Positions 1-41,873 of a stretch of DNA of 64,000 nt are shown here, in pieces. The DNA is taken from the NCBI GenBank assembly GCA_016794925.1, contig JAEUIW010000008.1, positions 62,001 to 126,000 of the forward strand, read 5' to 3'. Position 1 is the stretch's first letter, and every line of letters begins with the position of its first letter. The notes beneath the pieces were generated by a model. It was not told where the DNA came from and did not search any database. It worked only from the letters and a program-made list of their open reading frames with translations. A program made the position numbers and the translations under genes. Source of the DNA: Phycisphaerae bacterium. GTDB taxonomy: Bacteria > Planctomycetota > Phycisphaerae > Phycisphaerales > UBA1924.

Positions 1-1925
1 ATTGTTGACGCGGGTTCCGCCACTTCCGTGCCCGCGGCGGGCAAGGGCGGGAGGCCCCCGTTGTTCTCCGTCATCGGAAGGGCCTCGGGTGGGAGCGAAA
101 CCTGAATCTGATCCCGAGTGGGGCCTGCACGCGGTTGAACGGTTGGTCGCGAGCTCGGTTGCTCGATTGTCGCCGGGCGCGGCGGCGCGGCCGGCCCCTC
201 ACTCGGTTGTGCCGCGCGGGATGAGGCATCCGGCCCGCGGTCGGGCAACAGACGAGGCGGTGAATGGACGGTCATGCCCGCTTCATCGCTCGGGGGGGCG
301 GATGCGGTCTCCGCGGGAAGACCCGCCGGCTCCTCGGTCGAGTCGCGATCGAGCGAGGTCGCGAGCATCACGGGCGAACGCGTCTCGATTGCGGCCAACG
401 GCGCGGACACGCTTCGTTGCTGGAGGACTTCGGGTTGATGCGTCGATGCCGGAGCCGGGAGGTCCAGTGCCGGAACCTCCCAGCGCACGGGTTCGGGACT
501 CGCGCGCAGCGCCGCAAGCCGAGCCGTCTGCGTCTCGGCAAGCTCCGTCGAGCCGGCGCGGATCAACTCCGTCAGAGGATCGCTCGCTCCGGCGGACGAC
601 AGCATGACCCGCGTCCCGCCGCCCGTTCCGGCGCGCAGGTACTCGCCCACCGCTGACCCGACTTTCCAGGCCGCCAGCAGCGTGGCCAGCACCGCATGGA
701 TGAGCAGGGACACAAGCAGGCATCGCGCCAGCAGGCTGAGCTGACGCATCCGTCGGTTCCACAGCTCGTTGCCGCGGAGCCGCCACGAAAGCAATCCCAG
801 AACCAACAGGAGCGCGAGCAGCGCCAGCCAAGGCCAGGTCGCGCGCCAGAGGTCCGCGAGCGCGGGGCCCGCTCGCTCGCGCTCCGTGTACACCTCCCGT
901 GACGAACTGGACCAGAGCTCGTACCGGGCGGGTTCGATCGCTTGATCCGTGCGATGGTTCGTTCGATCGGTGCTGAAGTACAACCGGAAGCCATCCGCGC
1001 CGAGCGCGGGATCGAGATCGTTTGCCGTCGAGTTCACCGAGGCGTCGAGGTGCTCAACACCCGAAACACCGCTTTCGTCAACGCGGCCTGGCGGTGGCAG
1101 CCGCACCCGGTAGAGGTCGAACCCTCCCAGTCCCCCGGGACGATCCGAACCAAAGTACAGGAAATCGCCGATCGGACTCAGCGCGGGAGAACCTTCATCA
1201 AACGCCGTGTTCAGAAGATCGAGCGGCTCGGAGTGAACGGGCATTCCATCTGTCAGCGTGGCGACGTAGAGGTCGAAGTCGTGGCGCGTCCGTGACTCGC
1301 GCAAGGTGGCGGACCACGCGGGTGATCCGGACGGCGTTTCGCCCGAGCGGAGCCGATTTGAGGAAAAATACAGCGACTTGCCGTCGGGCGCAAGAGCCGG
1401 CCCGTACTCGTTGGCCGGCGAGTTCGCGCCCGGACCGAGGTTCACGGCCCCGCCCCAACCGTCGCCGCGCCGCGAGGCGACCCAGAGGTCGTAGCCGCCC
1501 AGCCCGCCCGACCGGTCGGAATAGAAATAGATCGACCCACCGTCTGGCGCGAACTCCGGACCGAGTTCATCCGCATCCGAGTTCACGCCGTCAAGCGCCT
1601 CGGGCTCGGTCCATCCGGATGGCGACCAGCGCGAAGCGAAGAGGTCGGCGTTCGAGCCCGGCCGCCGTCGCACGAAGACCATCGTCACCCCATCGGGGCT
1701 GAGCCGTGGCTCGTAGCTGTCAGAGCCTTGCGCGCCAAGCTCGCGAACCGGCGCGGCCGGTGTCCACAGGATTCGCCTCGGATCTCGCTCCGGCTGGGGA
1801 ATGCGAATTGTTCGCCCGTCCGACCACAACGCCAGCGGCCGGTCCGCGCCCAGCCCGAGCAGAACGAGCAGCGCCACCCCGAGTGCCGCACCCGCGACCA
1901 TGAGTGCCTTCGTGCGCCAGGACAT
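1..1925 (-). CDS. PD40 beta-propeller membrane protein, 3' end outside window
   Basis: The frame is open from an ATG at 1925 to the window edge (at least 641 residues), so the C-terminus is missing. A membrane anchor at residues 9-26 is followed by at least four TolB-type PD40 blades (residues 70-345) with the repeated SPDG/APDG and YFxSDR or FGSDRPGGLGG signatures. Two further membrane helices lie at about 363-382 and 397-420, then a long Pro/Ala/Ser-rich tail. The start lies 19 bases after the ExbD-like gene stop, so it is very likely the last gene of the ExbB/ExbD unit. I infer a TolB-like envelope role energised by that motor; the propeller is clear, the function is not. An upstream in-frame start cannot be excluded. 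Confidence 0.8.
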   Translation of the reverse strand, partial: MSWRTKALMVAGAALGVALLVLLGLGADRPLALWSDGRTIRIPQPERDPRRILWTPAAPVRELGAQGSDSYEPRLSPDGVTMVFVRRRPGSNADLFASRWSPSGWTEPEALDGVNSDADELGPEFAPDGGSIYFYSDRSGGLGGYDLWVASRRGDGWGGAVNLGPGANSPANEYGPALAPDGKSLYFSSNRLRSGETPSGSPAWSATLRESRTRHDFDLYVATLTDGMPVHSEPLDLLNTAFDEGSPALSPIGDFLYFGSDRPGGLGGFDLYRVRLPPPGRVDESGVSGVEHLDASVNSTANDLDPALGADGFRLYFSTDRTNHRTDQAIEPARYELWSSSSREVYTERERAGPALADLWRATWPWLALLALLLVLGLLSWRLRGNELWNRRMRQLSLLARCLLVSLLIHAVLATLLAAWKVGSAVGEYLRAGTGGGTRVMLSSAGASDPLTELIRAGSTELAETQTARLAALRASPEPVRWEVPALDLPAPASTHQPEVLQQRSVSAPLAAIETRSPVMLATSLDRDSTEEPAGLPAETASAPPSDEAGMTVHSPPRLLPDRGPDASSRAAQPSEGPAAPPRPATIEQPSSRPTVQPRAGPTRDQIQVSLPPEALPMTENNGGLPPLPAAGTEVAEPAST

Positions 1926-1944
1926 GCGTCAGCTCCGTATCCGC

Positions 1945-2358
1945 TCAGCGGAGGGGTACCGTTTCGAGATAAGGTTCCACGACGCCCGCTCCCTTGCACG
2001 CATCGAGCACACCCGCGATCGCGGCGTAGGGTGCGGCGCGGTCACCGCGTACGCTCACCTTCTGCCCCGGGTTGGCCGACACCGCGTCCCTGATCAGGCG
2101 TGCCAGTTCGCCAAGGTCCAGTTCGCGCGCGTTGACATAACTGCGGCCCTGGGCGTCGACGTTGATAACGATCTCGCGCAGAGCCGCCGAGATCGGGCCG
2201 TTGTGCTGGGCATTGGGCAGCGCGATGCGCATTTCACGCTCGTTCTGCGCCATGCTGGTGGCGAGCAGAAAGAAAATGAGAAGATTGAAGAGCACGTCGA
2301 CCATCGGCACAAAGTCGATGTGCAGGTCGGACCCGGGTTCACCGTTTCGGATCATCAT
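1945..2358 (-). CDS. ExbD/TolR-family biopolymer transport protein
   Basis: A 137-residue protein of normal family length. One membrane helix lies near the N-terminus (residues 17-34, VPMVDVLFNLLIFFLLATS), including the Asp of the MVDVLFNL motif that carries protons in ExbD/TolR. A small periplasmic domain follows, ending in a segment typical of the family (VSVRGDRAAPYAAIAGVLDACK). It would assemble with the ExbB-like channel encoded 18 bases upstream and transmit proton-motive force to an envelope partner. A GGGAG ribosome binding site precedes the ATG. Two adjacent in-frame ATGs exist (2358 and 2355) and either may be used. Confidence 0.93.
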   Translation of the reverse strand: MMIRNGEPGSDLHIDFVPMVDVLFNLLIFFLLATSMAQNEREMRIALPNAQHNGPISAALREIVINVDAQGRSYVNARELDLGELARLIRDAVSANPGQKVSVRGDRAAPYAAIAGVLDACKGAGVVEPYLETVPLR

Positions 2359-2376
2359 GATCGATACTCCCGTGCC

Positions 2377-3162
2377 TCACGCGCCGGCGGCGGCGATGAG
2401 GTCGCCGTTCGCCACCGTCTCCCCGCTCGTCGGCGCCGCGGCCGCCCGGGGTTGCGATTCCGCGACCGTTCGCGCCGGTGCGGGCGCGGCCTGTTCATCG
2501 CCGGCGCCGAGCCAGAGGTTGGCCGCATGGTCGATCGCCGCCGCCGCGGCGTCGATCCGACCCATGATGATGTGATACGCGAGCAGCGTTGGAATCGCGA
2601 CGATGAGACCGCCCGCCGTCGCCGTCCACGCTTCGTGGATGCCCTGGGCAAGCCGCTCCGTCTTGCCGAGCGCGTCCGCCGATGCCGAGACCACGGTAAA
2701 CGTGCGGATCATGCCCACCACCGTCCCGAGCAGGCCCAGCATGGTCGCAACTTGCGGCAGGGATGAGAGCAGCCGCATCCGTTGCCGAACCTTGCGGACT
2801 TCGCGTTCGCCCGCCTCACCGACGGCACGCTCCTGCTGCTCTCGCGGCAGATGCCGCGACCTGATCGCGGCCACGATCACCGCCGCGAGCGGGCTGGTGT
2901 CGGTCGCGCACCGCTCGAGCGCCCGACGCGGGTCCTGCTTCATGGACATCAGCGATTCCAGCAGCGCCGGGGGAACGATCCTCGCTCGCCTGGTGAGGAT
3001 CAGGCGTTCAACCACGATCGTCATCGCCGCGAGCGAGCAGACCGCAAGGGGGATCATGATCAACCCCCCACGGACGGTCATGTCCCACACCGTCGCCACC
3101 AGGGAAGCGTCCACGGGCAAGGACGGACTCGCCGCCGGAACCTGCGCAAGTACGAGCATCAT
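2377..3162 (-). CDS. MotA/TolQ/ExbB proton channel family protein
   Basis: A 261-residue protein with three predicted membrane segments: residues about 26-50, and a pair in the C-terminal half around the conserved region LPQVATMLGLLGTVVGMI and the later AGGLIVAIPTLLAYHII. These are hallmark ExbB/TolQ elements. It is the motor stator partner of the ExbD-like protein encoded just downstream. I chose ATG 3162 because GAGG lies five bases upstream; the longer frame to 3189 has no such site. An Ala/Pro-rich C-terminal tail extends past the last helix. Its place between a giant TPR protein and a propeller protein suggests a Tol-Pal-like trans-envelope machine rather than TonB iron uptake, but this is inference. 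Confidence 0.93.
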   Translation of the reverse strand: MMLVLAQVPAASPSLPVDASLVATVWDMTVRGGLIMIPLAVCSLAAMTIVVERLILTRRARIVPPALLESLMSMKQDPRRALERCATDTSPLAAVIVAAIRSRHLPREQQERAVGEAGEREVRKVRQRMRLLSSLPQVATMLGLLGTVVGMIRTFTVVSASADALGKTERLAQGIHEAWTATAGGLIVAIPTLLAYHIIMGRIDAAAAAIDHAANLWLGAGDEQAAPAPARTVAESQPRAAAAPTSGETVANGDLIAAAGA

Positions 3163-3228
3163 CGTGACCTCACTCCTGATTGGAAACACTCGAGAACCGA
3201 TCCCTCGACACGTCCCGGCCGCGAGGAG

Positions 3229-6200
3229 CTATTTCTTGGCCGCGGCACCGGACGCACCCTTGGCTCGTTCGCGAGCCCCGGGGAGCGGCTCGGGTCGCCC
3301 GCGCTCCAGCGCCGCCCGAGCTTGGCCGGCCCATTCGCTCTCGGGAAACTGATCGATCACCCGCTGGAACTGCCTCGCCGCGTCCTCGCGTCGCTGCAGT
3401 GCCGCGAAGCAACGGCCTGCCTCGTACGCCGCCGCGGCACTCCACTCCGGAACGGCGAACAGCACCTCGACCTTGAGCAACTCGCGAGCGGCATCCTCGT
3501 GCCTGCCCAACGCGAACAGGCACTCGCCGATCTGAAACTGCGCCCGCGCGCCGGTCGGGCCGGTGTGGCGCGCCGCGACCTCTCGGTACGCTTCGATCGC
3601 CGCGTCGTGCCGGCTCTGGTTCTCCCGCGCCCAGCCCTGCCCGAAGCGAGCCCGGAACCACTGCTCCGCGTCGGCGTAGGCGTCGATGTACTTCGTGAAT
3701 GCCTCGTCCGAGGCCGCCCACTGCTGCAACCGCGCATGGGCATCCCCCAGCCTGAGCAGCGCCCGACCACGCAACTCGTCCGACCCGCCGCGCGCCAGCG
3801 CCCGCAGCTCCTCGACCGCCTCGCCGACTCGTTCGGCGCCCAGCAGAGCTTCGGCCCGCAGCATCCGGACGCCGGGGGCCGCCGGATCGTCGGGGAACCT
3901 GCGAAGGAACGCGCCGAGTGAATCGACCGCGGAACGCTTGGCGGACCGCGCCTCCGCAACCGCTCGCATGTAGAGCACGCGGCGAACCGACTCGGCGGAG
4001 CCGCCCGGAGCGTCCACGTCAACACCGCCCAGTCGCTCGATCACGCGGTCGTACCGTTCGCGGTCAAGATCGATGCGCGCCAGCTCCAGCATCGCGTGCG
4101 CGGTGATCCCCTCGCCCGCGTGGAGCCCCACCAGTTCTTCGTACACACGGAACGCCTCGTCCAACCGCCCCAGTTCGTTCAGCACGAACGCCCGCTCGGA
4201 AACGAGCGAGGCACGCAACGTCGGATCCAGATCCGCTCGCTCCGCTGCCTCCAACGCCGCCAGAGCGGCCGTGTCCGGGCGCTGCCGAGCCAGGGCCACG
4301 GCCAAGCGCGCCCGCGCTTCGGGAAGCCGCGAGTCCCCGGGGTTCGAATCGACAAAGCCCCGCAGCGTCGCCTCCGCCTCCGCCTCGCGGCCTGAGGCGA
4401 GGAGGACCGTTGCGAGCGCCAGGGCGGACTCACCCTTTGAAGTCGGGTCCGGATCGATCGCATGCGCCCGCGTCAGTAGCGCCGCGGCCTGATTCGCGTC
4501 CCCTGACGCGGACGCGATCCCGGCCAGTTGCCGCAGCGCGTGCGACAGGAGACCCGCCGCGCCGGCCGCCTGTTCGGCGCCCACGACGGCTTCGAAGTCC
4601 GCCCTGGCCTTGTCGCTCAATCCCATCGCCAACCTCGCCCGACCCAGCTCGAACCGAGCGCGGATCACCGACTCCTGCCTCGCGCCACTGCCCATCTCCG
4701 ACACTCGTTCAAACCACGGCAGCGACGCCTCGGCCTCACCCCCTCGGACGAGCGCGAGACCCGCTCGCAGCGCCAGATCGGCTTGCAGCTCACGATCGGG
4801 CTCGCTCGCGACGGCACGCTCGTACGCCCGAGCCGCACGCGCCCAGTCACACGCGTCGAACGCAACCGCGCCAATCGCCGCCCAGCCCGCCCGTGTCGCG
4901 GCGGCGTCGCCGCCTTCCCCCGTCAGGATCGTCTCGAGTTCCGCAGCGCCCTCCGCACCTCTGTTCAGCCGGATGAGGCACATTCCTTTTCGGAACCGCG
5001 CCCGCCACGATGCCGCTCCGGGCCCGCGCACGCCCCGGCACGCCTCCTCGGATTCGGCGTACCTCTCAAGAAAGTACAAGTTGTCCGCGACCAGCACCCG
5101 CGCCTCGTCCGCCCGCGCCGAATCCGAAAGCCGGTCCGCCAGGCCTCGGCACGCATCGAGGCTCTCGTCGAAACGGTGATCGGCATGCAACGACGCGGCT
5201 CGGGCGAGAGCGGCCTCCCCTGAGAGGGCATGATCGGGATAGTCCTTCGCCACGCGTGACCAGACGGACCGCGCTTCCTCACGACGTCCCGCCCGGTCCA
5301 ACGCCGCGGCCAGTTCGAGCCCCATCTCCACGGCCAGCTCACCGTTCCACCCCTGATCAAGCCTTCCCGCGAGCTTCCTGATCGCATCGTCGATCCGGTC
5401 GAGCTCCATCAGACAGCGGGAGCTCCAGTAGGTTGCTTCGTCGAACAGCGCGGCGTCCGCATCCCTGCCGATCGTGTCGATGCTCGCCAACGCCTCCCGC
5501 GCACGTCCACAGTCCAGCAAGGCCCGCCCTTTCTCGAGCCGCGCCCGCGCGGCGAGTGACGCCGAGGGATGCTGCGCGAGAAGCTCGTCCGCCCGAGCAA
5601 CGGCGCCGCTTGCCTCACCTCCCGCTCGTTCCAGCTGGAGCAGACCCAGCATGGCCGCGTGCCGGATCGACGCGTCCCCGACTCGTTCCAGGCTCCGGTA
5701 AATTCCCGCGGCCGCTGACTGCCCGAGGGCGTGGCGAGCCTGCGCTTCAACGAGCGCGGCGCGTTCGTTCAACGGCCCGGCGGGATCGCGCGCGTCGGCC
5801 GCGAGCCGAGCCGCGGACTCGTGGTCGCCCCGAGCCGCGAATGCCAGCGCGCCGAACAACGCCACCCGCGCGCGTGCCTCATCCGAAGCTCGCTCCCGCA
5901 GGAATGCCTCCGCCGCGGCGGCCGCGTCCGAGAAGGAACCCGCGCGATGCAGCGCCTCGACGCGAAGCGCCATCACACGCGCGAGCTGCGCAAACTCCGG
6001 GTGCTTCTTCTGGATCACCCCGAGGCGATCCGCGGCCTCGCCGAAGCGGCCCTGCTCGAACGCCCCACGAGCACGCAGCAGGAGCGCGTCCGCGCCGAAC
6101 TCAAATCCCGCCCGCTCACTCACCGCGGCGAGCTCCGCCTCCGCGGCTTCGAATTGACGCAGCCGGAACAAGCAGACGCCCAGCGCATACCTGGCTTGAT

Positions 6201-37649: not shown

Positions 37650-38180
37650 ATGCTCCCCGACTCATTCGCCGCCATCACGCGCTCCCAGATGGACGCCTCG
37701 CTCACCATGCTGCGCCACGCCATCCAGTCCTGCACGAACGCTCGCTGGAAACGGCCCGTGGGTGTCTGGCCCTTCTGGCTCGTCGTCTACCACACCCTCT
37801 GCTACGTCGATTGCTACTCCGCGCCCTCCAATCGCGCCTGGAAACCACACCCCGTCTTTCACCCCAAGGGCCGCAAGGAACTGCAGGACGAATACCCCAG
37901 CCGAGGCTTCACCCGGGAGGAGATGCTCGACTATCTCGACCTCTGCCGGGGCCGGTTCTTCGCCGCCGTCGAGCGCGAGACGCCCACGAGCCTGCGGCGC
38001 GCATCGGGCTTCTCATGGCTCAGGTTCACCCGCGCCGAGCTGCACCTGTACAACGTGCGCCACGCCGCGCACCACACCGGGCAACTGACCGCCGCGCTCC
38101 GCAAGAGCGGCGCGAAAGTCGGTTGGGTCAAGGCGGAGAAGCCTCCCTCCGCGCCGATTCAAGCCCGATCCCCGCCCTGA
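37650..38180 (+). CDS. DinB-like four-helix metalloprotein (first copy)
   Basis: A 176-residue protein starting ATG 37650. The DinB/YfiT-like pattern is seen: a first helix with the PFWLVVYHTLCYVDCY segment (one metal-binding His) and a C-terminal helix LYNVRHAAHHTGQLTAALR carrying the paired histidines. Such proteins bind a divalent metal and many act as thiol-dependent transferases with bacillithiol or mycothiol; no specific reaction can be assigned. It follows the GNAT gene. Confidence 0.82.
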   Translation: MLPDSFAAITRSQMDASLTMLRHAIQSCTNARWKRPVGVWPFWLVVYHTLCYVDCYSAPSNRAWKPHPVFHPKGRKELQDEYPSRGFTREEMLDYLDLCRGRFFAAVERETPTSLRRASGFSWLRFTRAELHLYNVRHAAHHTGQLTAALRKSGAKVGWVKAEKPPSAPIQARSPP

Positions 38181-38245: not shown

Positions 38246-38881
38246 TCACGCCCGCCCCCGCACCACCGCCGGCGACTCCGTCTCCGCCTGCCAATCGACC
38301 GCGCTCGGCTCGCACGTGCCCGCGGTGACGCCCGGCACCGTGGCCCCGAGTTGACGGAGCATGTTCAGGCACTGGGCCCGATGGTGGTAGCCGTGCGTCG
38401 TCAGGTGCACGATCACGGCGCCGCGTGTGAACGTGTAGGTCTTCATCACTCCCGGCTCCGACCCCGGCCAATCCACCGACAGTGTCGAGCCCAGGCCCAA
38501 TCGTCCCGCAACGCCCGCGCCTTCACCCACGCCGCTCGCCGCACGCACCTCCCCCACCACGGCCCTCAGATCGCGCTCCGCCTCGTCCAGCAGTTCGAGC
38601 AGCTCCACCGGCGTGCGGTCCCTCGCCTCACCGGAGATCTCCGGAAACCCCGGCACCACGTACAAGTTCGGCCGCGGCGTGCGGGCAGCGATCCGGTCGG
38701 TCCAGCGCCGCATGACGCTGATGATGTGCGTCAGCGTGTCGTGCAGCGACCCCGGCCCGATGGCGAACCGCTGGTGAAACTGCGCGCGCGTGAGCCCCGC
38801 GCACACCCGCAGGATCATCCGCGTCCCCCAGGCGTCCGAGGCCACCAGGATGTCGATCGGATCGGACGAGAGTCTGTTCAC
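38246..38881 (-). CDS. DinB-like four-helix metalloprotein (second copy)
   Basis: A 211-residue protein convergent with the first DinB-like gene, 65 bases apart. Signatures are GSLHDTLTHIISVMRRWTDRI near residue 45 and TTHGYHHRAQCLNMLRQLG near residue 165, which supply the three histidines of the metal site. A Gly/Val-rich insertion lies in the middle. It is only distantly similar to the first copy, so they are separate family members rather than a recent duplication. Confidence 0.88.
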   Translation of the reverse strand: MNRLSSDPIDILVASDAWGTRMILRVCAGLTRAQFHQRFAIGPGSLHDTLTHIISVMRRWTDRIAARTPRPNLYVVPGFPEISGEARDRTPVELLELLDEAERDLRAVVGEVRAASGVGEGAGVAGRLGLGSTLSVDWPGSEPGVMKTYTFTRGAVIVHLTTHGYHHRAQCLNMLRQLGATVPGVTAGTCEPSAVDWQAETESPAVVRGRA

Positions 38882-39007: not shown

Positions 39008-39835
39008 TCATCGCACGTCGCGGCCGCGCACGCCGTCCGTGGTGTGAAGCAGCGCGGGAGAGTCGGCGTAATGCACGGCGCCCGAATCCTTGAAGATGAA
39101 GCCGTCGCCGCGCTCGTACCCGCCCTGCAGCGATTCCCACGGCAGCGGACGCGCGCCGCCATCGCACGTCGCCACGAGCCTCGCACGCGCGAGGTCGCGC
39201 CTCCCCCCGCGCGAGCTCCTCGGCGCACCCTCGCCCCGTACCCCTTCCACGACCAGCGCCTTGGACCCCGGGAACGCCACCTGATCCGCGCGCGTGCCGC
39301 CCCACTGCCCGGGTCCGGTGCGGCGGTAGGGGTTCCAGAAGTCCGGGTGCGCGATGAACGCGCACGGGTAGTGGTAGCTCGTGAACCACGGCCGCATCTC
39401 CACGCCCGTGCCCTCGCCCGCGTAGCGCGGCGGGAAGAGCGCCTCCGACGATGCGTTCCCGGAGAAGTACCCGTCCGCGAGCGCGATGTGCCACGTCTGG
39501 AACGCGTCGAAGAACGAGGCGACCTCCACGCGCAGTCCCCCGCCCGCGATGACGTTGTCGCCGAACCCGACGTGCGTGAAATACGGCCATGAACCCGCGA
39601 AGTCCTGGGTGTACGCGTGAAACCCCCGCGCGATGCTCGCGAGGCTCTGGAGCGAACGCGTTCGCTTCGCGCCCTCGCGCACGGCCGCGAGCGGCCCTGA
39701 TAGAAGCGCGAGCAGCACCCCGACCACCGCGAGACACACCAGGACCTCGATCAGGGTCACCGCCCGACGGCGCTCGGACGCGCCCGCCGCCAAGACCGGA
39801 TCGATGCGAGAAGACCCGCGAATCCCGCCGACCAC
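39008..39835 (-). CDS. Type IV pilin-like/DUF1559-type pseudopilin
   Basis: About 275 residues from GTG 39835, an uncertain start chosen because a basic leader must precede the pilin signal. The prepilin site is RRRA-VTLIEVLVCLAVVG, with the conserved glutamate at +5 and a hydrophobic helix. The mature part has LASIARGFHAYTQDFAGSWPYF and an ending DSGAVHYADSPALLHTTDGV resembling the H-x-G end of DUF1559 planctomycete pseudopilins. The gene overlaps the MauE-like gene by 79 bases and is last in the operon, which suggests co-translation. A role as an envelope or secretion pseudopilin is inferred. Confidence 0.72.
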   Translation of the reverse strand: MVGGIRGSSRIDPVLAAGASERRRAVTLIEVLVCLAVVGVLLALLSGPLAAVREGAKRTRSLQSLASIARGFHAYTQDFAGSWPYFTHVGFGDNVIAGGGLRVEVASFFDAFQTWHIALADGYFSGNASSEALFPPRYAGEGTGVEMRPWFTSYHYPCAFIAHPDFWNPYRRTGPGQWGGTRADQVAFPGSKALVVEGVRGEGAPRSSRGGRRDLARARLVATCDGGARPLPWESLQGGYERGDGFIFKDSGAVHYADSPALLHTTDGVRGRDVR

Positions 39836-40248
39836 AGCACGCCGTTGCGCACCAGCCCGGCCCGTATCGAACCCTCGACATCCAAGTACCGCGCCCACAG
39901 GCCGAGGCACGCGCACGTCGGCTTGACATTGTTGGCCCAGTGCCACAGGAGTACTCCCGTGAAGAGGCTCACAAGCCCAAGTGAGCAGACAACAGCCTGA
40001 AGTCTGCGACCGGAAACAAACACGACGAACGGCGCCGCCTCAACGGCCGGAAGCACCACCGACAACAAGTCCATACACCACGATGGCAACAGAACGAAAC
40101 CGTCAACCGAGGACCGCCAATGATCCCAATCCGCGAGCTTTCCAATCGCGGTCAGGAACAATATCGCGGGAAGCAAACTCTGAACTCCGGTTCGCACGCC
40201 TTTCACTGCGATCCCCTGAGCACGAACGTCCGGATCAGGGCTCAGCAT
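39757..40248 (-). CDS. MauE/DoxX-family membrane protein
   Basis: A 163-residue protein. ATG 40248 overlaps the stop of the upstream gene (ATGCTGA) and gives a protein with four membrane helices, as in MauE. The motif KPTCACLGLW is the conserved CxCLG thiol pair near the third helix. MauE-type proteins help oxidise or handle disulfides for secreted proteins such as methylamine dehydrogenase small subunit. Here the neighbour upstream encodes a secreted protein with eight cysteines, a plausible client. Longer starts at 40278 and 40335 are disfavoured. Confidence 0.78.
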   Translation of the reverse strand: MLSPDPDVRAQGIAVKGVRTGVQSLLPAILFLTAIGKLADWDHWRSSVDGFVLLPSWCMDLLSVVLPAVEAAPFVVFVSGRRLQAVVCSLGLVSLFTGVLLWHWANNVKPTCACLGLWARYLDVEGSIRAGLVRNGVLWSAGFAGLLASIRSWRRARPSAVGR

Positions 40249-40676
40249 CCCGATCCCGTTGCCTGACGCCCGGTACATGTCTTCGTCAGCGTACCGAGCC
40301 AATTGCAGTTTCCGGTGTTGTTCGGCCCGCTGCACTCATATGAATCGATTATTACGCTGATCGGAGCGGTATTGTGGATTGGCCCGAGGCTCCCCGCTTC
40401 ATCTCCAGACTTGGCACGAACATCATTAACCTGCGCATCCTGAATGATGACATCGCCGCAGGGCGTGATGTTGGCTCCGTTGGTGCATTTGCGACCCTGG
40501 TTGGCGTGCAATGCACCGCATGATTTGGTGAAGTTGAAGTAACACGCCGGCGCGCCCCCAGGTCCTCCACCAGAATCCGCGAACAGGCTCGCCGCGCCGA
40601 AAACGACCGCCGCAAACGCTGTACAGGCAGCCGCACGACCTGCAGCAAATCTGGACGTGCTCGTGTGTGTATGCAT
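40242..40676 (-). CDS. Secreted cysteine-rich protein of unknown function
   Basis: A 144-residue protein. A signal peptide of about 34 residues (to SLFADS) is followed by a mature part of about 110 residues with eight cysteines (at CYF, SCG, KCT, PCG, ECS, NCN, TCT and the final C), enough for four disulfides. No family is recognised. Its place directly before a MauE-like thiol membrane protein, with overlapping codons, suggests the pair is functionally linked. The upstream gene ends 15 bases before it. Confidence 0.8.
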   Translation of the reverse strand: MHTHTSTSRFAAGRAAACTAFAAVVFGAASLFADSGGGPGGAPACYFNFTKSCGALHANQGRKCTNGANITPCGDVIIQDAQVNDVRAKSGDEAGSLGPIHNTAPISVIIDSYECSGPNNTGNCNWLGTLTKTCTGRQATGSGC

Positions 40677-40691
40677 GTATGTTCCTTCTTC

Positions 40692-41873
40692 TCACGTGTT
40701 GCCGCGCATCGTCCGGTGAACGATCACCGGGATGATGACGATGACCAATCCGACCAGCACAACCGAGATGAACCAGCCCCACGAGCGCCCCGGGGACCCC
40801 TCGGCCGCGGGAGCGGGCGATGAAGATGCGCGGGCCGGTGGGGGTATCCCCATGGGATCCGTGATCGCGAAGCGATCCACGCCGTCATGCGTCACCCACG
40901 TCACACTCAGGCTATCCCGGTAGTTTTCCCAGTGCGGCACGGATCGGTCCGACCAATCACGCACGAGCCAGTCGGAAGCCGCCACGGGGCGGACGCATGC
41001 CCGCTCGACCTCGTCCCGGCCCACGCGTTTCGACGCGCGCCGCGTGGCACGCACCCGGACGCCGTCGCCGCGATCTTCGACAAACCCGGATATTGGCGCC
41101 GACGCGTCACCCGTGGTCGCGGGCACGAACACCATGCTCGGCGGAACCCCCGAAGCCGATTCGCCTCCGTCCAGCCATCGCAGGCCCAGGGCCCTCGGTT
41201 CGTTCCTGGGCGCCGGCCAATCGCCGCTGAGCATCACGCCCCCGGAGCCCGGGCCACGCAGGGCCAGCCTCCATGTTTCACCCTCGAACACGACCGAGCC
41301 CGGATCCGGAACAAGCCCGATCACCGGCAGGCGGTAATGAAAGAAACGCCGCAGCTTCTCGACGGCCATGTCGTGGTAGCGGCTCACGTTGAACCCGCCC
41401 GGGAAGGGAATACCCGAGTGAATGACCGTGAGCTGGGCCTGCTCCCCGTCCCGCCTGTACAGCATCCACCGCTCGCCCCCCAGGCCGCCGCGCCGCAGCT
41501 CGCGCCCGTCGGCGTCGCGTTCCTCGAGCAGCCACGCGTCGGACCCCGCGTACAGGAGGCGGAACCGCGACGCGACCCGCTGCTCGAGGCACCGGCGAAG
41601 CAGCAGCAGGCGGTTTCGATCCGGATGGTCCGGCTTGTCCTCGACCGCCCGCCAGCGCGCCCCGACCTCCTCCGCGGAGAGCAGCGAGGACCATTCCTCG
41701 TCCCACTCAAGTTCGATGCCGGGAACATCCGCCGGTCGAACCTGCGTCGGGTTGGAGTGGTGCGCGACCCAACGCAGAAGGACTTCGGCGCGATCTCGAT
41801 TCTCCGGCGGGACGGCCGCGCCGCAGAGCAACAAGCCGAGCGAAGTGCCAGCAGCGCTGAGCATCGCCAACAT
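40692..41873 (-). CDS. Exported, C-terminally anchored protein of unknown function
   Basis: A 393-residue protein from ATG 41873. An N-terminal signal peptide (MLAMLSAAGTSLGLLLCGAA) and a C-terminal membrane helix (GWFISVVLVGLVIVIIPVIV) bracket an extracytoplasmic domain of about 330 residues rich in charged residues (for example GIELEWDEEWSSLL, HYRLPVIGLVPDPG). No known domain is recognised. The ATG lies directly downstream of a run of twelve G bases in the ribosome binding site position. It is first in the four-gene operon with the cysteine-rich protein, MauE-like protein and pseudopilin. Confidence 0.75.
   Translation of the reverse strand: MLAMLSAAGTSLGLLLCGAAVPPENRDRAEVLLRWVAHHSNPTQVRPADVPGIELEWDEEWSSLLSAEEVGARWRAVEDKPDHPDRNRLLLLRRCLEQRVASRFRLLYAGSDAWLLEERDADGRELRRGGLGGERWMLYRRDGEQAQLTVIHSGIPFPGGFNVSRYHDMAVEKLRRFFHYRLPVIGLVPDPGSVVFEGETWRLALRGPGSGGVMLSGDWPAPRNEPRALGLRWLDGGESASGVPPSMVFVPATTGDASAPISGFVEDRGDGVRVRATRRASKRVGRDEVERACVRPVAASDWLVRDWSDRSVPHWENYRDSLSVTWVTHDGVDRFAITDPMGIPPPARASSSPAPAAEGSPGRSWGWFISVVLVGLVIVIIPVIVHRTMRGNT

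Follow-up and report, generated by a model that had tools for sequence, protein, structure and literature searches.

Why should a single operon hold an anchored exported protein, a small secreted protein rich in cysteine, a member of the MauE family and a pilin-like protein? Four such genes, here called A to D, lie on the minus strand in the window, by which we mean the whole 64,000-nucleotide stretch of Phycisphaerae contig JAEUIW010000008.1 that was analysed, and their coordinates were confirmed (Table 1). The first-pass annotation had read them as encoding a disulfide-dependent secreted or surface structure assembled with a pilin-like component. That reading fits what we found, and the assembly step itself is something that we infer rather than demonstrate.

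Table 1. The four genes of the operon, with positions in the window
Gene	Position	Strand	Length	Product
A	40692-41873	(-)	393 aa	exported, predicted LolA/LolB/RseB-like domain and C-terminal TM anchor
B	40242-40676	(-)	144 aa	secreted, cysteine-rich; about 110 aa and 8 Cys once mature
C	39757-40248	(-)	163 aa	MauE-family membrane protein, CxCLG motif (CACLG)
D	39008-39835	(-)	275 aa	prepilin-like (A|VTLIE), large C-terminal domain ending LHTTDGVRGRDVR

The operon and its relatives

The compact layout described earlier was reproduced in full: 15 bases separate A from B, the overlap of B with C spans 7 bases (ATGCTGA) and that of C with D 79, with D read from a GTG start in an open frame that extends to 39946. 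With dozens of divergent loci sharing this gene order, the four-gene arrangement is, as judged from sequence, well beyond chance. A convergent pair resembling DinB-type proteins (37650-38180, plus strand, and 38246-38881, minus strand) sits beside the operon, outside the conserved set. Flanking genes vary from locus to locus, and the idea that the cassette occupies a conserved genomic location was therefore rejected. An anti-phage defence system was likewise rejected, as PADLOC models match none of the four proteins.

When 61 related genomes of the family were searched with B, C and A, the A-B-C-D neighbourhood was recovered in other genera. The A alignment finds matches in 25 of the 61, with one to eight copies each, and six in the window's own genome. 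Every cassette seen here belongs to a Phycisphaerales-type genome, one carrier (G038) being from another family of the same order. When the D alignment was run against named genomes, nearly all of the 17 loci that it recovered were titled Phycisphaerales, Phycisphaerae or Phycisphaeraceae; the remaining titles were one Planctomycetota and two cyanobacterial, Leptolyngbya sp. PLA1 (L078) and Cyanobacteria bacterium CYA (L085). The latter looks like a mislabelled bin, because its gene content is the same as that of a family member (G032:C1). A draw of 294 genomes across the phylum, which held few family members and scored six candidates per genome and so gives a sketch of the range, yielded A matches limited to the own genome and one family member. 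The four-gene set, for which a search in other planctomycetes had been suggested, thus recurs in Phycisphaerales-type genomes and is not general among planctomycetes, with very little to be seen outside the family.

To describe the anatomy of the cassette, the DNA around A matches was scored with profiles of all four families, and a diverged B was added by hand where an ORF with a matching cysteine pattern sits between A and C. Of the 63 A-loci, 62 have D, 53 have B and 52 have C. The full set of B, C and D accompanies A in 51 loci, D alone in eight, B and D in two, and C and D in one, while a single A stands alone; the order A-B-C-D is never altered. Two full cassettes lie in tandem in one genome (L149, G035:C1:2036100-2044300), and G003 (L133) likewise has two in a row. 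The own genome carries an A gene with no B, C or D behind it (L146, G000:C278:87700-93000, 632-1660), an orphan or a decayed cassette. Genes for HMA-domain and outer-membrane-like proteins occur near cassettes in different genomes (L056, 4789-5999; L061, 10041-11275) and were rejected as members, being present at these two cassettes only.

A MauE-family protein often fused to a prepilin

By its sequence, C is a true MauE-family protein: it matches PF07291 with 58.6 bits (E 1.1e-15, cut-off 27), its CxC motif lies at residue 112, and CxC[LFM] is kept in 43 of 52 homologues. Hydropathy of the focal protein gives three clear hydrophobic segments. A resemblance to myxosortase-like proteins (NF040593) was dismissed as a chance match, at 15.7 of 180 bits. 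In the MauE/MauD system of Paracoccus methylamine dehydrogenase, MauE accompanies a disulfide-rich small subunit, and C similarly adjoins a disulfide-rich exported protein. The cassette differs in that its MauE is usually fused before a prepilin and its candidate client, B, comes from an unrelated family; by eye, no mauA, mauB or mauD was recognised among the predicted neighbours of C. A use of MauE unrelated to methylamine has been described for candidate RiPP clusters of Streptomyces, in which it accompanies a small predicted precursor (PMC7794033); that paper calls the role of MauE in disulfide formation speculated. Those clusters have no pilin or LolA-fold protein described in them, and B is a Sec-exported folded domain rather than a short precursor peptide.

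D carries the cleavage and methylation motif of the (pseudo)pilins of type II secretion systems and type IV pili such as GspG and PilA, with a small residue at -1, Glu at +5 and a hydrophobic helix following. Its 25.8 bits for PF07963 (N_methyl) exceed the cut-off of 21.2, TIGR02532 is likewise matched over its cut-off, and the first 60 positions of the D profile match geopilin (5e-12), PilA (5e-10) and GspG (3e-8) chains. D departs from these proteins in its unmatched C-terminal part and in the absence of assembly genes from the cassette. Among NCBIfam models, D and its relatives match those of pilin N-termini only. The remainder, roughly 190 residues closing on an HTxxGxRGRD motif in which HT..G..GRD is invariant in 15 aligned sequences, has no family match. 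Against the GspG model TIGR01710 the focal protein reaches 17.9 of 88.85 bits, below the equivalog cut-off and through the N-terminal helix only, and against the Verru_Chthon model TIGR02596 it reaches 13.7 of 70 bits, again through pilin helix residues only. The Verru_Chthon families (TIGR02596-TIGR02600) form repeated pilin-like cassettes in Verrucomicrobia, a related bacterial group, and the likeness is best taken as a lead only; to our knowledge, that cassette holds neither MauE nor a cysteine-rich protein.

In 35 of the 52 loci having both, C and D form a single ORF, and in 33 of these 35 a prepilin motif is kept at the junction, as [GA] followed by a start of the [FMT]-[TSA]-x-x-E type and a hydrophobic helix. 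In those frames that also contain CxC[LFM], the cut site falls 49-64 residues past this pattern, and in one fusion (L057, 6601-7833) hydropathy places the MauE segments first and the pilin helix after. Because nearly all fused loci keep a prepilin cleavage motif between C and D, MauE there occupies the position that a pilin leader peptide would take. If the MauE part has four TM segments, a cytoplasmic position would follow for the linker and the prepilin site, on the side of the membrane where prepilin peptidase works. A cytoplasmic location of the prepilin site accords with established knowledge of pilins. The link between MauE and pilin proposed at the outset is therefore stronger than was supposed, given that the two are usually fused. 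In the literature consulted, we found no paper joining MauE with prepilins, and although the protein types are known, the combination of a MauE fused before a prepilin with a dedicated exported partner rich in cysteine and a tethered protein of predicted LolA fold seems to be undescribed.

The cysteine-rich protein as a candidate client

What, then, might this MauE act upon? B, which has a signal-like stretch at residues 15-33, matches no Pfam or NCBIfam family, and the relatives of A, B and the rest of D are likewise without any Pfam family match. The view of B as a disulfide protein gains backing from two features of its cysteines. Their number is even in 44 of 52 mature B proteins (binomial p 2e-7, a count that ignores kinship), and the cysteine columns of the family either are invariant or co-vary. 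Columns 41 and 125 have both cysteines in 29 proteins, neither in 19 and a mixed state in 4 (p 1e-10), and columns 13 and 116 have both in 45, neither in 4 and a mixed state in 3 (p 3e-4), with kinship ignored in both tests; the members of each pair are mutual best partners. The focal protein has the 41-125 pair, lacks both cysteines of 13-116 and holds eight in total. Cysteines are kept in this way even though mean column identity across the family is only about 27%. The best AlphaFold2 model of B is confident and beta-rich (mean pLDDT 89.9), with two of the five models falling below 70, and comparison with solved structures gave no convincing known fold. Structure prediction, which had been suggested as a check for a four-disulfide fold, has thus delivered a beta-rich model and no recognised relative, and B as a four-disulfide domain is a well supported prediction.

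Two other identities for B were considered and rejected. A lipoprotein is opposed by the position of the first cysteine of the focal protein, which is well inside the mature part and belongs to the even, co-varying set, so that the lipobox reading fails. For a cystine-knot growth factor, PDGF and VEGF stand in the top rows of the structural comparison, but with Z of 3.6 or less, rmsd near 10 and a Foldseek probability of 0.14, and the focal protein has no CxGxC or CxC ring motif.

The first-pass annotation had made its proposal depend on the cysteine-rich and MauE-like genes recurring together in relatives, and they do: the two are found together in 51 of the 54 loci that have either, and are jointly missing in nine (presence table over the 63 A-loci 51/2/1/9, Fisher p 2e-8). 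The exceptions are two loci with B and no C (L142, L086) and one with C and no B (L151). The best A+D tree, which has long branches and weak support for many of them, requires seven or more changes of the B-C state, spread over several branches. In one genome, sister loci joined with support of 100 differ in exactly this respect, L134 lacking B and C and L135 having both. Considering well supported branches alone, four independent pairs differ in B and C follows in three of them, which is too few for significance. The number of cysteines in A is the same with and without B and C at the locus (p 0.58), and D has a median of 0 cysteines in loci without B and C as compared with 2 in loci with them (p 0.03). 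This difference suggests that D may be a client too. Taken together, these observations favour B as the client and leave room for D.

We accordingly weighed the alternative that C mainly serves D, its frequent fusion partner, and that B is a separate passenger in the operon. The 35 fusions and the lower cysteine content of D in loci without B and C speak for it, and so do two loci of the own genome, L179 (G000:C222:342500-351500, 3923-5967) and L180 (G000:C122:1-9500, 3587-5676), which encode MauE-pilin fusions with no cysteine-rich gene. These fusions follow an exported protein of another kind, about 280 aa long, and their C-termini, GLFGRDF and GIHGRDY, are diverged forms of the GRD motif; we regard them as a second subtype of MauE-pilin cassette. 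They show that MauE is not tied to B alone and that MauE-pilin coupling is wider than the A-B-C-D cassette, and they weigh most heavily against a role of MauE restricted to B. On the other hand, D cysteine counts have no preference for even numbers, seven of 50 D proteins with a MauE have no cysteine at all, and eight loci keep D yet miss C along with B. Service chiefly to D strikes us as unlikely. That B is a client, as first suggested, is supported by co-occurrence and by cysteine parity and pairing; that it is the exclusive client is not supported, given the B-less fusions in the own genome and the eight A+D loci without B and C. The client step, oxidation of B by MauE, can be called well supported, if by indirect evidence.

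The divergence of B raises a further possibility, namely that the operon encodes a variable surface or contact module, such as an adhesin or a recognition device, in which B is the diversifying outward tip, D the filament subunit and the paralogues several specificities. The one to eight copies per genome, the patchy distribution, the very long terminal branches and the low identity of B around retained cysteines would all suit such a function. However, A and D are highly divergent too, so that fast change is not special to B; moreover, A-D loci without B exist, and no known adhesin fold was recognised for B. We consider this reading doubtful, and it is compatible with MauE oxidising B.

Gene A, the host and a proposed mechanism

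By hydropathy, A has a hydrophobic stretch near its N-terminus and, at 367-385, a C-terminal TM segment. Neither Pfam nor NCBIfam has a family matching A, and A with 15 relatives gave no Pfam or PDB-profile match to the LolA/LolB/RseB superfamily. An AlphaFold2 model built from 16 sequences (mean pLDDT 81.7) nevertheless predicts a LolA/LolB/RseB fold over about residues 29-310. In the PDB the model matches LolB with Z 10.6 and LolA with a Foldseek E of 7e-6; the best structural matches are 9tpm (Z 10.6 over 216 residues, rmsd 5.7) and 4mxt (10.5 over 181, rmsd 4.4), followed by many LolA/LolB/RseB entries. A would thus resemble this superfamily in fold and differ from it in lacking a sequence-family match and in having a C-terminal TM anchor. 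LolA-fold proteins bind lipids, lipoproteins or hydrophobic peptides, and A may accordingly be a tethered chaperone or receptor. The predicted fold and the anchor would also suit an envelope-sensing or quality-control module, with an RseB-like A sensing a ligand and C and D as accessories. We think this highly improbable: only a few residues follow the TM segment of A, so that a cytoplasmic signalling domain is lacking, and the conserved set showed no gene for a sigma or anti-sigma factor.

With at least seven strong GspE/PilB-type ATPase matches and six secretin matches in the own genome, a filament machine is available to the cassette. The one match to prepilin peptidase falls below the Pfam cut-off (23.5 of 26.5 bits). 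The same genome has no match to VKOR and 11 to the MauE family, so that MauE proteins may carry much of its disulfide chemistry. Several MauE-family genes of this genome sit in other settings. At L181 (3805-4551) and L182 (3604-4308), where the family is put to a further use, MauE with an N-terminal HMA-like region lies by cysteine-rich genes related to metals. At L183 (G000:C278:156500-165000, 2131-4412), a MauE gene comes after a DUF1573-like protein and overlaps the end of a rhodanese-like gene. At L184 (G000:C278:91000-99500, 1686-4414), MauE follows an exported protein that has a TM segment at its C-terminus and, judged by eye, may be LolA-like, with a pilin ending GLRGRDLP nearby on the opposite strand; this is perhaps a rearranged relative of the cassette.

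Our preferred reading, which we consider about evenly poised between right and wrong, is a lineage-specific accessory cassette in which MauE oxidises B in the periplasm and D couples B to a type II/IV machine. B would be exported by Sec and become a small, predicted beta-rich domain held by four disulfides, and C, as a membrane thiol oxidoreductase, would form these disulfides by means of a CxC that faces the periplasm. Anchored by its C-terminus in the inner membrane, A may bind or hold a hydrophobic surface or ligand en route. D would be cut by the housekeeping prepilin peptidase and recruited by a type II secretion or type IV pilus machine of the cell, coupling this machine to B as carrier, tip or exporter, and in the fused proteins the peptidase cut would free the pilin from a MauE that had served as its leader. 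Conservation of the cassette, the identity of MauE, the prepilin motif, the fusions, the co-occurrence of B with C and the pattern of cysteine pairs in B are evident from sequence, and the folds of A and B are predictions; we infer oxidation of B by C, the action of A, and export or display through D. A more specific version, held only tentatively, is a disulfide export system for one client, in which a polytopic thiol oxidoreductase is itself the cleavable pilin leader, oxidation of B and loading of the filament are coupled at one membrane site, and several paralogous cassettes in each cell carry different payloads.

As a rule, factors for disulfide bond formation assist proteins in general. 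In this cassette, gene order, fusion and shared absence tie a MauE-type factor to one cysteine-rich exported family and one pilin family. If the proposed mechanism is true, the oxidation of proteins would be directly linked to a machine for secretion or pilus formation, and three unnamed families (A, B and the main part of D) would gain a testable function, in bacteria whose many pilin-like proteins are unexplained.
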